Below are positions 31,355 to 34,774 of a stretch of 64,000 bases of DNA, piece after piece. A model generated the notes under the pieces. The model saw only the letters and a list, made by a program, of their open reading frames with translations. It did not search any database and was not told where the DNA came from. The translations under genes and the position numbers were made by a program. The DNA is from Planctomycetaceae bacterium. GTDB lineage: Bacteria; Planctomycetota; Planctomycetia; Pirellulales; Pirellulaceae. Positions within the stretch are counted from its first letter, which is position 1. Each line of letters starts with the position of its first letter. The stretch is taken from assembly GCA_007694185.1 (NCBI GenBank), contig RECD01000140.1, positions 1-64,000 on the forward strand. Reading direction: 5' to 3'.

Positions 31355-31577
31355 CGTAGGGTTTCCGAGGTGGGAGAGCGGTCGGCGGGTTGGATCCGGA
31401 ACCAACCATAGCCGGAACTCCGGCGCCAAGAAACCGTCCCTGGCTGACCCGGCCGGATTTTCTTCGTCCGGCCCCCTCGGCCAGATCCTGATGAACCGAT
31501 TCCGGTCGGATTCCGTACAATAACGTGTGAACGATCCGCTGAAAATTGAATGGCTCCTCTGTCGGTTCTGCCTGTCC

Positions 31578-32705
31578 ATGAACGTCACGCGAGAAGATTT
31601 GGTCGGTTATCTGCTGGCCGCGTTGGAACCTCACGAGATGCGTTGTGTCGAGGAGAGGTTGTCCGTGGACCCGTTGTTGCGGGATCAATTAGCCGAATTG
31701 CAGCGAACGCTTCAGGTGGTGGACGAGCGGATGTTGGGCCCCGACCGGGTCGCCGAGTTGCCCAGCGGCTTGGGCGATCGGACGCTGGCGTTGATCGATT
31801 CGGCGATGGTGTCGCCTTCCGGTTGCGGTTGGCCCGCGGGTGTCATGGCGAAAGCGACACCGATTCGGTCGGTTGAAGAAATCGCCTGGCGGGGGCGGCG
31901 GCGCAAATTGGCCGACTGGTTGGTCGGCGGCCTCGCCGGGGTGGCGCTGCTGGGGATCGGCTTTCCCACGGTCGCTCATCTTCGCGAGGAATCTCGGAGC
32001 GTGATTTGCCAAGACAACTTGCGTTGCCTTGGCGACGGGCTGATGCAATTCGTGCTCCGCGATCCGCAAGAACGACTTCCCGCGCTAGATAAAAGTGGGC
32101 CGCGGGCGTTCTCCGGCATGTGGGCTGTCCATTTGTTTGACGTGGGTGCCTTGACCGACAGTGACAGTCCGAGGCGGTGGTGTCCCTCTGGCAGGTCGCC
32201 CCGACCCGACGATCCGCCGAAGGTTCCCGCACCCAACGGTCGATTTCAGACCGAATCCCCGGTCCCGGGGCTGACCCGCTTGGTCCGCAAGGATGAGATT
32301 CGGCGGGCGAGCGAGACGAAGAATTTGGCGGTTTTGAGCGGGATGCAGCGGAACTCCGGCGGTAACTACTCCTACAATCTGGGGGTCAGGAATGGGGGCG
32401 AATATCTATCTCCCCATTACGAGGCCCGACCGAACTTCGCCGTGCTCGGCGATTCGCCCACCGCAGGCGACTACCAGGGGACGAGTGTGGATGTCACCCG
32501 GATGAGTTTTCCGCACCCGCGAAACGGGGCGAACGTGTGGTACGAAGATGGCAGCGTCCGCACGGTGTACCCCGCGCGGATGTCCGGGCAAGTGGATCAC
32601 CCCTACATGAACCATCGGGGCGCGATCGAAGCCGGTGTCAACCTGGACGACGCATCTTTGGCGCCCAGTGGCTGGCCCCCGTTCCTGGACGCCAGCCAAC
32701 GCTAG
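31578..32705 (+). CDS. planctomycete membrane protein: anti-sigma-like N-terminus with DUF1559/pseudopilin-like C-terminus
   Basis: MNVTREDLVGYLLAALEPHEMRCVEERLSVDPLLRDQLAELQ; TM at LADWLVGGLAGVALLGIGFPTVAHL; C-terminal FPHPRNGANVWYEDGSVRTVYPARM. Confidence 0.7.
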   Translation: MNVTREDLVGYLLAALEPHEMRCVEERLSVDPLLRDQLAELQRTLQVVDERMLGPDRVAELPSGLGDRTLALIDSAMVSPSGCGWPAGVMAKATPIRSVEEIAWRGRRRKLADWLVGGLAGVALLGIGFPTVAHLREESRSVICQDNLRCLGDGLMQFVLRDPQERLPALDKSGPRAFSGMWAVHLFDVGALTDSDSPRRWCPSGRSPRPDDPPKVPAPNGRFQTESPVPGLTRLVRKDEIRRASETKNLAVLSGMQRNSGGNYSYNLGVRNGGEYLSPHYEARPNFAVLGDSPTAGDYQGTSVDVTRMSFPHPRNGANVWYEDGSVRTVYPARMSGQVDHPYMNHRGAIEAGVNLDDASLAPSGWPPFLDASQR

Positions 32706-32801
32706 CTGTTGGCCGGAACCGGCTGCTGGGTCGAGGGCATTGGTTCGACACTCGCCAGGTTCACGCGGCGTGGCTCAGTCGTCGCGGATCGGTCAACGCG
32801 G

Positions 32802-32930
32802 TTAGGCGAGCGGCAGAAATTAATTTACCCCAGTAGCAGGCATACTTCGTGTGCCGTCCGCACTCAGCTGCGGCACACGGAGTATGCCTGCTACTTTCGC
32901 CGGTACTGTTTCATCCGCTGCTCGCCTTAG
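32802..32930. repeat. palindromic REP/MITE-like element
   Basis: Inner arms 32832-32856 agtagcaggcatacttcgtgtgccg and 32871-32895 cggcacacggagtatgcctgctact pair over 25 positions with one T/G wobble and a 14-nt loop; outer arms aggcgagc (32804) and its complement gctcgcct (32920-32927) extend the palindrome. Confidence 0.8.
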
Positions 32931-33007
32931 CCCGTTTCAAGTCGCGTCGGTCTCCGCCTGCCGCCAGGGCGGGTCGTTCGCAAATTTTCGGCTGAGCCTC
33001 TGCGACC

Positions 33008-33046
33008 ACGAAAAAACCCGACCGATCTTGCGACCGGTCGGGTTCT
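33008..33046 (-). terminator. intrinsic terminator of the YTV-repeat gene
   Basis: Minus-strand AACCCGACCGGTCGCAAGATCGGTCGGGTTTTTTCG: GC-rich stem followed by T tract, about 30 nt past the stop codon. Confidence 0.85.
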
Positions 33047-33076: not shown

Positions 33077-34774
33077 TCAGTTGCAAGTGACGCAACCGGC
33101 ACCGACGGCCACGCCGGTCGAGACGGAGCCGTAAGCCGGCACCATCACTTCGCAGACGACCGGGCGGCAGACGCGAACTTGAACTTCTTTCTGGCCGGGA
33201 ACCGCGACGCAAACCGTGTAGGTCTCTTCGACCTGCTCGGTGACGTTGCTGTAAACCGTCACGTTGTAGGTTCGGGTCCGGGTTTCGGTCGTCATTTTGG
33301 TGACCGGAACCTTGCGGGTGCGGGTTTCCTGGACCATCTTGGTGACGGGAACCGTCCGAGTACGAGTTTCGTTCTGATAGGACGTCACTTGGTACTCTTG
33401 GGTTCGCTCTTCGGGACGGCACTTGTTGACGTTCACGACGCGAGTTCTCGTTTCGGTCCGGCACTTGGTAACCGGGGTTTCCCTTGTGCGGGTTTCCATC
33501 CGAGTCCGAGTGACCGGCACTTCACGGGTCTTGGTTTCGAGAACACAGGTCCTGACCTGATATTCGCGGGTCCGCTCTTCGGGACGACACTTGGTGACGT
33601 TCACGATGCGGGTGCGGGTTTCCGGGCGGTACTTGGTGACCTTCACGACGCGGGTCTTCGTCTCGGTGACGCAGGTGGTCGACGTGTAGGTGTAGGGCTC
33701 TTCCGTCGTCTGCATCTGGTAAGTCGTGACCGGGACTTCCCGGGTGACCGGCTTCGAAACGTAAACCTGACGTTGGACGTAAGTCGGGGCGCAGCCGTTC
33801 GTGGTGGCCGCTCCACAGCCCGAATCGCAGCCGGTGTCACAGCCAGCCGGGGCACAACCGGTGCCGCATCCGCCCCGCAGTCGGCCGAACAGGCCGCCAC
33901 GCGAGTGTCCGCCGTAACCGGCGGTTAGCGTGGTCGGGCTGACTTCGACCAACTGGCACTCGTAACCGCCATGGTCTTCCGTGATCGTTTTCATCGTCGT
34001 CACCGGAACGCAACGGCTGACCTTGCGGACTCCGGTCTTGGTTTCCGTGACCGGGACCTGAACCGTGTAAGTCTGCTCAACTTCCTCGGTGTAGGGAACG
34101 TTGACCGTGTAGGTCTGTTCGACTTGCTCGGTGTACGGCACGTTGACCATGTACTTCTGGGTCTTCGTTTCGATCACCGGGGTTCGAGCCGTGTAGGTCT
34201 GGGTGACCATTTCCGTGTACGGGACGCAGACGTTGTAGGTCGACGTCACCATCTCGGTGTAGGGCACCTTGACCGTGTAGGTCTGTTCGACCTGTTCGGT
34301 GTAAGGGACCTGGACCGTGTAGGTGCGAGACTTGGTTTCGGTCACCGGGACGCAAACCGTGTAGGTCTGTTCGACCTCCTCGGTCACCGGGACGCAAACC
34401 GTGTAGGTCTGTTCGACCTCTTCGGTCACCGGGACACAAACCTCGTAGGTCTGTTCACGGGTTTCGACCGAAGCGACGCAGCGGGTAACGTCCTTCATCC
34501 GAGTCTTCGTCTCACGGACGTACTCGACGGTCGGAACCAATCGGGTTTCCGTGACGTATTGAGAGCGGGTAACCGTCCTCGCAACGTAGTTCGTTGTGGG
34601 GGCGCAGCCGGAACCGGCGACGCAACCGTTGGTCGTCCCGGCCACCGGGCCGCATGACGAACAAGCCGATACCGTCGGCGAGGTGCCACAGGCGGTGCAG
34701 CCCGCCGCAGCGTCGGAGACGGCGACATTCGTCGCCATCAATCCGAGTGCCAAAGTCATCAAGAAATTTTTCAT
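33077..34774 (-). CDS. YTV-repeat protein (planctomycetal exported, Cys-containing repeat protein)
   Basis: Signal peptide MKNFLMTLALGLMATNVAVSDAAAG; ten tandem 14-aa units such as TYTVCVPVTEEVEQ; central Cys-rich segment; C-terminal TRxxPVTKxxxETR repeats. Confidence 0.92.
   Translation of the reverse strand: MKNFLMTLALGLMATNVAVSDAAAGCTACGTSPTVSACSSCGPVAGTTNGCVAGSGCAPTTNYVARTVTRSQYVTETRLVPTVEYVRETKTRMKDVTRCVASVETREQTYEVCVPVTEEVEQTYTVCVPVTEEVEQTYTVCVPVTETKSRTYTVQVPYTEQVEQTYTVKVPYTEMVTSTYNVCVPYTEMVTQTYTARTPVIETKTQKYMVNVPYTEQVEQTYTVNVPYTEEVEQTYTVQVPVTETKTGVRKVSRCVPVTTMKTITEDHGGYECQLVEVSPTTLTAGYGGHSRGGLFGRLRGGCGTGCAPAGCDTGCDSGCGAATTNGCAPTYVQRQVYVSKPVTREVPVTTYQMQTTEEPYTYTSTTCVTETKTRVVKVTKYRPETRTRIVNVTKCRPEERTREYQVRTCVLETKTREVPVTRTRMETRTRETPVTKCRTETRTRVVNVNKCRPEERTQEYQVTSYQNETRTRTVPVTKMVQETRTRKVPVTKMTTETRTRTYNVTVYSNVTEQVEETYTVCVAVPGQKEVQVRVCRPVVCEVMVPAYGSVSTGVAVGAGCVTCN
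33200..33690 (-). repeat. C-terminal tandem array of 14-aa units with 168-bp higher-order period
   Basis: tccgctcttcgggacgac at 33571 recurs as ttcgctcttcgggacggc at 33403 (168 bp = 4 x 42); protein NVTKCRPEERTREYQV / NVNKCRPEERTQEYQV. Confidence 0.85.
34040..34465 (-). repeat. N-terminal tandem array of 42-bp (14-aa) YTV units
   Basis: gtcaccgggacgcaaaccgtgtaggtctgttcgacctcctcg at 34341-34382 repeats almost exactly at 34383-34424; ten consecutive 14-aa units in translation. Confidence 0.92.

Follow-up and report, generated by a model that had tools for sequence, protein, structure and literature searches.

A very probable GTAG-type REPIN, apparently orphaned in its planctomycete genome, and the RAYT lineage found beside the same REP in relatives

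Architecture of the locus

The window (the whole 64-kb stretch of DNA analysed here) comes from the draft genome of a Planctomycetaceae bacterium (G000; 5.78 Mb in 288 contigs, 99% complete). A nested palindrome of about 125 bp is located in the window between two convergent open reading frames (ORFs). The upstream ORF, on the + strand (31527-32705), is anti-sigma-like by weak NCBIfam matches only, and the downstream ORF, on the - strand (33077-34774), contains YTV repeats (Pfam, E 4.8e-34). The inner arms of the palindrome (32832-32856 and 32871-32895) are 25 nt each with a spacing of 14 nt, and are complementary at 24 of 25 positions (96%), the sole mismatch being T:G. They are enclosed by two outer arms of 8 bp, AGGCGAGC (32804-32811) and GCTCGCCT (32920-32927). 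The original prediction had described inner arms that pair with one wobble and outer arms that give a symmetric element between convergent genes, and both descriptions agree with this layout. The RNA fold of the region 32800-32932 has a free energy of -81.4 kcal/mol (z -10.9, against dinucleotide shuffles).

Each of the two 25-bp inner arms forms a hairpin of its own with a GTAG foot (GTAGCA-GGCATAC-TYC-GTGTGCC), which had been overlooked in the prediction. The consensus of the REP unit, GTAGYA-GGCACAC-TCC-GTGTGCC, consists of the GTAG foot and a hairpin with a 7-bp stem and a 3-nt loop. A lone unit also folds on its own as single-stranded DNA, and the pair (32832-32895) folds into one long hairpin (-31.2 kcal/mol, z -10.8). 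Within the 64-kb window the core pattern matches the two inner arms only, with a chance expectation of 0.14. The features of the locus are as follows.

32832-32861, + strand: left REP unit; A, GTAG foot (32833-32836), CA, hairpin GGCATAC-TTC-GTGTGCC (32839-32855) and the conserved GTCCGC tail (32856-32861)
32871-32895, - strand: right REP unit, inverted; AGTAG foot, CA and hairpin GGCATAC-TCC-GTGTGCC (32872-32888); exact pattern match
32832-32895, no strand: very probable REPIN; head-to-head REP pair with GTAG outward, from the inverted repeat and the single-stranded DNA fold
32803-32926, no strand: composite of the REPIN and the outer arms; near-identical copy at contig C91, half copy at C106, diverged copy at C23
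33018-33037, - strand: separate intrinsic terminator, likely of the 33077-34774 gene; hairpin followed by GTTTTTT, outside the REPIN

The repeat family in the genome

The REP unit is repeated in G000: 30 units differ from the REP sequence of the window at no more than 3 positions, a degenerate pattern detects 45, and its reversed control has no match. The GTAG foot is kept in 30 of 34 units and the TCC loop in 29 of 34, together with the 7-bp stem. Among 34 distinct units, both sides of a stem pair are changed in 17 cells compared to 5.1 in shuffles, and 92.4% of the cells are paired, although these cell counts are inflated by related copies; the signal is lost when the pairing is slid. The exchanges are A-U/U-A and C-G/G-C/U-A, at two pairs of the stem.

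The units are mostly located outside ORFs. By a crude test, 11 of 38 fall within ORFs of 200 aa or more, compared to 82% of random points at the same loci. Neighboring REPs are mostly arranged head-to-head with GTAG outward, in 13 of 16 pairs in G000 and in 101 of 137 in other genomes. The prediction of a candidate repeat family, to be sought in this genome and in relatives and abandoned if the genome had a single copy and relatives had none, is therefore borne out by the 30-45 units in G000 and by the copies in relatives.

The RAYT partner in relatives

A search of relatives with the NCBIfam model NF047646 reached RAYTs proper. One of them is located at the end of contig C388 in a genus-mate (G002), and a head-to-head pair of the window REP begins at its stop codon. 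With the C388 protein as the query against 39 genomes, six further close RAYTs were found (L356, L357, L358, L359, L361 and L362; L360 duplicates the L359 record). They have 52-69% identity to the query and all adjoin the window REP. A RAYT gene beside this REP, which the original prediction had advised looking for, is thus present in seven other genomes, with the REP on both flanks in five and on one visible flank in two. In L357 the REP is on the downstream side, and the contig starts soon upstream of the RAYT. In L356 (2034-2037) and L357 (831-834), the RAYT ends in a TAG stop codon that the adjoining REP provides through its GTAG foot.

The partner RAYTs contain the NHxH and Y-x(n)-NP motifs and match NF047646 (E 1.6e-17, 3.1e-20 and 2.7e-14). 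Their scores, 53-73 bits, are below the curated cut-off of 80 bits, so we place them in a diverged planctomycete subgroup. On the tree, the seven REP-flanked RAYTs cluster as a single group, which requires one change (0 of 500 shuffles were as low), and the support is 85/56 for the group of seven and 96/91 for a group of six. Therefore, the repeat and the transposase lineage go together, as has been described for other REP/RAYT pairs (PMC3116915, PMC2817692).

Different RAYTs carry different GTAG hairpins, and the association is thus specific. L363, which is outside the tree, has 58% identity over a shorter stretch and its own related yet distinct hairpin, GTAGACTGCACACTCCGTGTGCAG. More distant RAYTs have unrelated GTAG hairpins, for example GTAGACCAATTCCCCGAATTGGT at L375 and GTAGAACAATTGTCCTCAATTGTT at L199/L332, and a recognizable hairpin is missing from some RAYTs. 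Planctomycete RAYTs with their own differing GTAG hairpins were seen at L363, L373, L374, L375, L380, L332, L324 and L337. These amount to several more REP/RAYT pairs among Planctomycetota.

Other candidates for the partner were discarded. The Y1 transposases of relatives found with Pfam had no window REP alongside wherever their flanks were read, and the best PF01797 matches include IS200-type proteins, none of which, among those read, carried this REP. An 802-aa ORF beside a REP pair (L287), considered as a fused RAYT, is a beta-helix/fn3 protein.

Outer arms and alternative readings of the palindrome

The original prediction treated the whole nested element as a family. This holds for the inner REP, and not for the outer arms, which are confined to a few places and form no repeat family. 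Elsewhere in the genome, the 124-bp composite recurs once almost unchanged (C91:24314-24437, 96%), and its further copies are the half copy and the diverged relative listed above; arm-like stretches without the REP are found at C73 and in a second genus-mate (G003). The two near-identical copies have unrelated surroundings and shared outer ends, as would be expected for a MITE of a DDE-type insertion sequence with AGGCGAGC...GCTCGCCT as its terminal inverted repeats and the REP pair as cargo. However, the outer arm alone has no more repeats in G000 than its reversed control, and dozens of inner REPs exist without outer arms. Target-site duplications, for which the prediction had proposed to compare the flanks, were not found, as no direct repeats lie beside either of the two full copies. 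We consider such a MITE highly unlikely. The best reading of the composite is a REPIN that was duplicated with its surroundings or was inserted into a low-copy palindrome.

It is improbable that the palindrome is mainly a bidirectional terminator, as the prediction had allowed, or an mRNA 3'-end stabilizer of the convergent genes. Its position between convergent stop codons and its very stable hairpin would suit such a function, and REPs elsewhere are known to act in this way at some sites (PMC3733652). On the other hand, a scan for intrinsic terminators found none on the palindrome, which is followed on the + strand only by TTT; the only sites found are at 33018-33041. The lack of a T-run, together with the separate canonical terminator at 33018-33037, whose GTTTTTT serves the - strand gene, makes this role unlikely. 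Moreover, a local function leaves the 30-45 copies and the tie to one RAYT group unexplained. A secondary role as terminator or stabilizer may still exist at this site. The segment 33010-33046 forms a compact hairpin; its - strand carries a T-run, and its + strand is T-rich in one stretch. It is likely the terminator of the YTV-repeat gene, and is possibly two-way.

The prediction also mentioned a structured RNA. The strong fold, the covariation in the stem and weak, sub-threshold Rfam scores for microRNA precursors are compatible with a conserved structured RNA gene. These scores fall far short of the gathering cut-offs and were obtained for both strands, as is expected of any long palindrome, and we dismissed the matches as noise. 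The copy number, the occurrence in both orientations, the variable spacers and the flanking of RAYTs suit a DNA element instead, and an RNA gene is extremely improbable here.

The palindrome is very probably a REPIN, that is, two inverted GTAG-type REPs that make up a non-autonomous miniature transposon. This identity is based on the copy number, the covarying stem, the non-coding bias, the inverted pairs and the association with a RAYT in relatives. The suggestion of a planctomycete REP of the RAYT/REP type is thus correct for the inner palindrome, which is multicopy, GTAG-footed and mostly in inverted pairs, occurs across Planctomycetota and is linked to one RAYT lineage.

Orphan state and decay in the genome of the window

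A protein search of the G000 draft with the C388 RAYT found no match to a cognate RAYT at E 1e-5. A distant RAYT-like ORF is present at C27:2781-3944 (L320); it has 388 aa with NHLH and YVDLNP motifs, and matches NF047646 with an E value of 4e-10 but a score under the cut-off. At least four copies of this type of gene are found in G000 (L320, L321, L322 and L323), several of them broken at contig ends, among them partial copies at C165, C197 and C178. None of the RAYT-like genes in G000 adjoins the window REP. The possibility that G000 is without any HUH transposase (PF01797, Y1_Tnp) was rejected when a laxer search, together with NF047646, revealed these divergent genes. Imperfect inverted repeats are located around the C27 copy, and ORFs of about 400 aa that resemble L320 recur in relatives.

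The foot, loop and stem, scored with one identical pattern, are all intact in 53 of 60 units in G002, compared to 12 of 34 in G000 and 11 of 34 in G003, a comparison that covers three draft genomes only and in which the arrays of G002 homogenize copies. The cognate RAYT is present in G002, and none was found in G000 or G003. Many intact units were observed in G028 and G110, where no close RAYT was found; G028 is just 78% complete, all the assemblies are drafts, and RAYTs between repeats are easily lost in assembly.

Genomes that keep REPs after losing their RAYT have been described (PMC3733652). The missing cognate RAYT therefore lowers the case for an active element and not that for a REPIN, for which membership rests on the relatives, because no cognate RAYT was found in G000. 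The REPIN is apparently orphaned in this genome, and its REPs would be relics that have gained mutations after the loss of the transposase.

Distribution

With one genome per species, the exact 29-base form of the REP was found in at least 119 stretches from at least 34 other isolates. Among the matches listed, 115 are from Planctomycetota, 4 from Candidatus Poribacteria and none from any other phylum; the planctomycete orders (NCBI labels) are Pirellulales, Planctomycetales, Gemmatales and Isosphaerales. The REP is present in 22 of 119 sampled genomes of the GTDB family of the window, with a maximum of 89 units per genome, and in 3 of 5 genomes of its genus. The copies in the Candidatus Poribacteria MAGs (L222, L231, L289 and L307), for which mis-binning is possible, have the same edges, AAAGTAG... 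and GTCCGC. Only distant RAYT-like proteins were found in these MAGs, without an adjacent copy of this REP.

A search of plasmid sequences gave no match to the REP. Several REP units are located in viral-labelled contigs (IMGVR 3300031576_000108 and 3300025935_000252; L406, L408, L409, L410, L416 and L418), which may be host DNA or proviral edges.

Discussion

A super-family of GTAG-tagged REPs is known in Planctomycetes (Di Nocera et al. 2013, PMC3733652), with several families in Rhodopirellula baltica, a genome with many tyrosine transposases. The original prediction had likened the core to intergenic repeats of Rhodopirellula-type genomes. The window REP shares with the super-family the GTAG foot, the short loop, a stem of 6-13 bp with complementary variants, the mostly non-coding location, the frequent head-to-head dimers, the presence in Planctomycetes and the flanking of RAYTs by the same repeat. 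Two unpaired bases (CA/TA) separate the foot from the stem in the window REP, a feature that Di Nocera et al. note for GTAG-1 and GTAG-2 only. The comparison with the R. baltica families was by description rather than letter by letter, and the window REP may be one of them; its sequence was not found in print in the literature searched, with the family figure of PMC3733652 outside the comparison. GTAG REPs of Planctomycetes have thus already been reported, and the window REP is a well-resolved further case. Of interest are that its RAYT partner has been resolved, that a single REP sequence is so widely spread and that the element is apparently orphaned in G000.

The REPINs of Pseudomonas fluorescens SBW25 (Bertels and Rainey 2011, PMC3116915) also have inverted pairs, a variable spacer, one hairpin, tandem clusters and a RAYT of their own adjacent to the matching REP type. 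In contrast, the REP sequence and the RAYT lineage are different here, and the RAYT was not found in the host. The partner proteins share the model match (NF047646, REP_Tyr_transpos) and the NHxH and Y-x(n)-NP motifs with the RAYTs of Nunvar et al. (2010, PMC2817692), who found RAYTs with abundant REPs in gammaproteobacteria only.

The sequences suggest that the REPIN was probably copied by the RAYT found beside the same REP in related bacteria. By analogy with IS200/IS605 enzymes and published RAYT work, from which the mechanism is drawn, this RAYT would be an HUH/Y1 single-strand nuclease with IS200/IS605-like chemistry. In single-stranded DNA it would recognize each REP by its GTAG foot and hairpin, and would most likely copy the REP pair to new sites in trans. 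The lineage of the window would then have lost its cognate RAYT, leaving the remaining copies to mutate as relics.

A more tentative possibility, which we regard as somewhat unlikely, is that one REP-RAYT pair has spread sideways through four or more orders of planctomycetes, while the REP, which also occurs in Candidatus Poribacteria, kept an almost frozen sequence. If true, this would depart from the published view, in which RAYTs are inherited vertically and REPs differ by lineage.

The analysis uses sequence evidence to link a planctomycete REP to its likely transposase, outside the gammaproteobacteria from which such pairs were originally defined, and it explains a recurrent intergenic palindrome that awaits annotators in planctomycete genomes. 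With a detectable RAYT in one genus-mate (G002) and none in two others (G000 and G003), transposase loss and repeat decay can be compared within a genus. If the proposal holds, orphaned REPs that decay after the loss of their RAYT would provide a natural clock.
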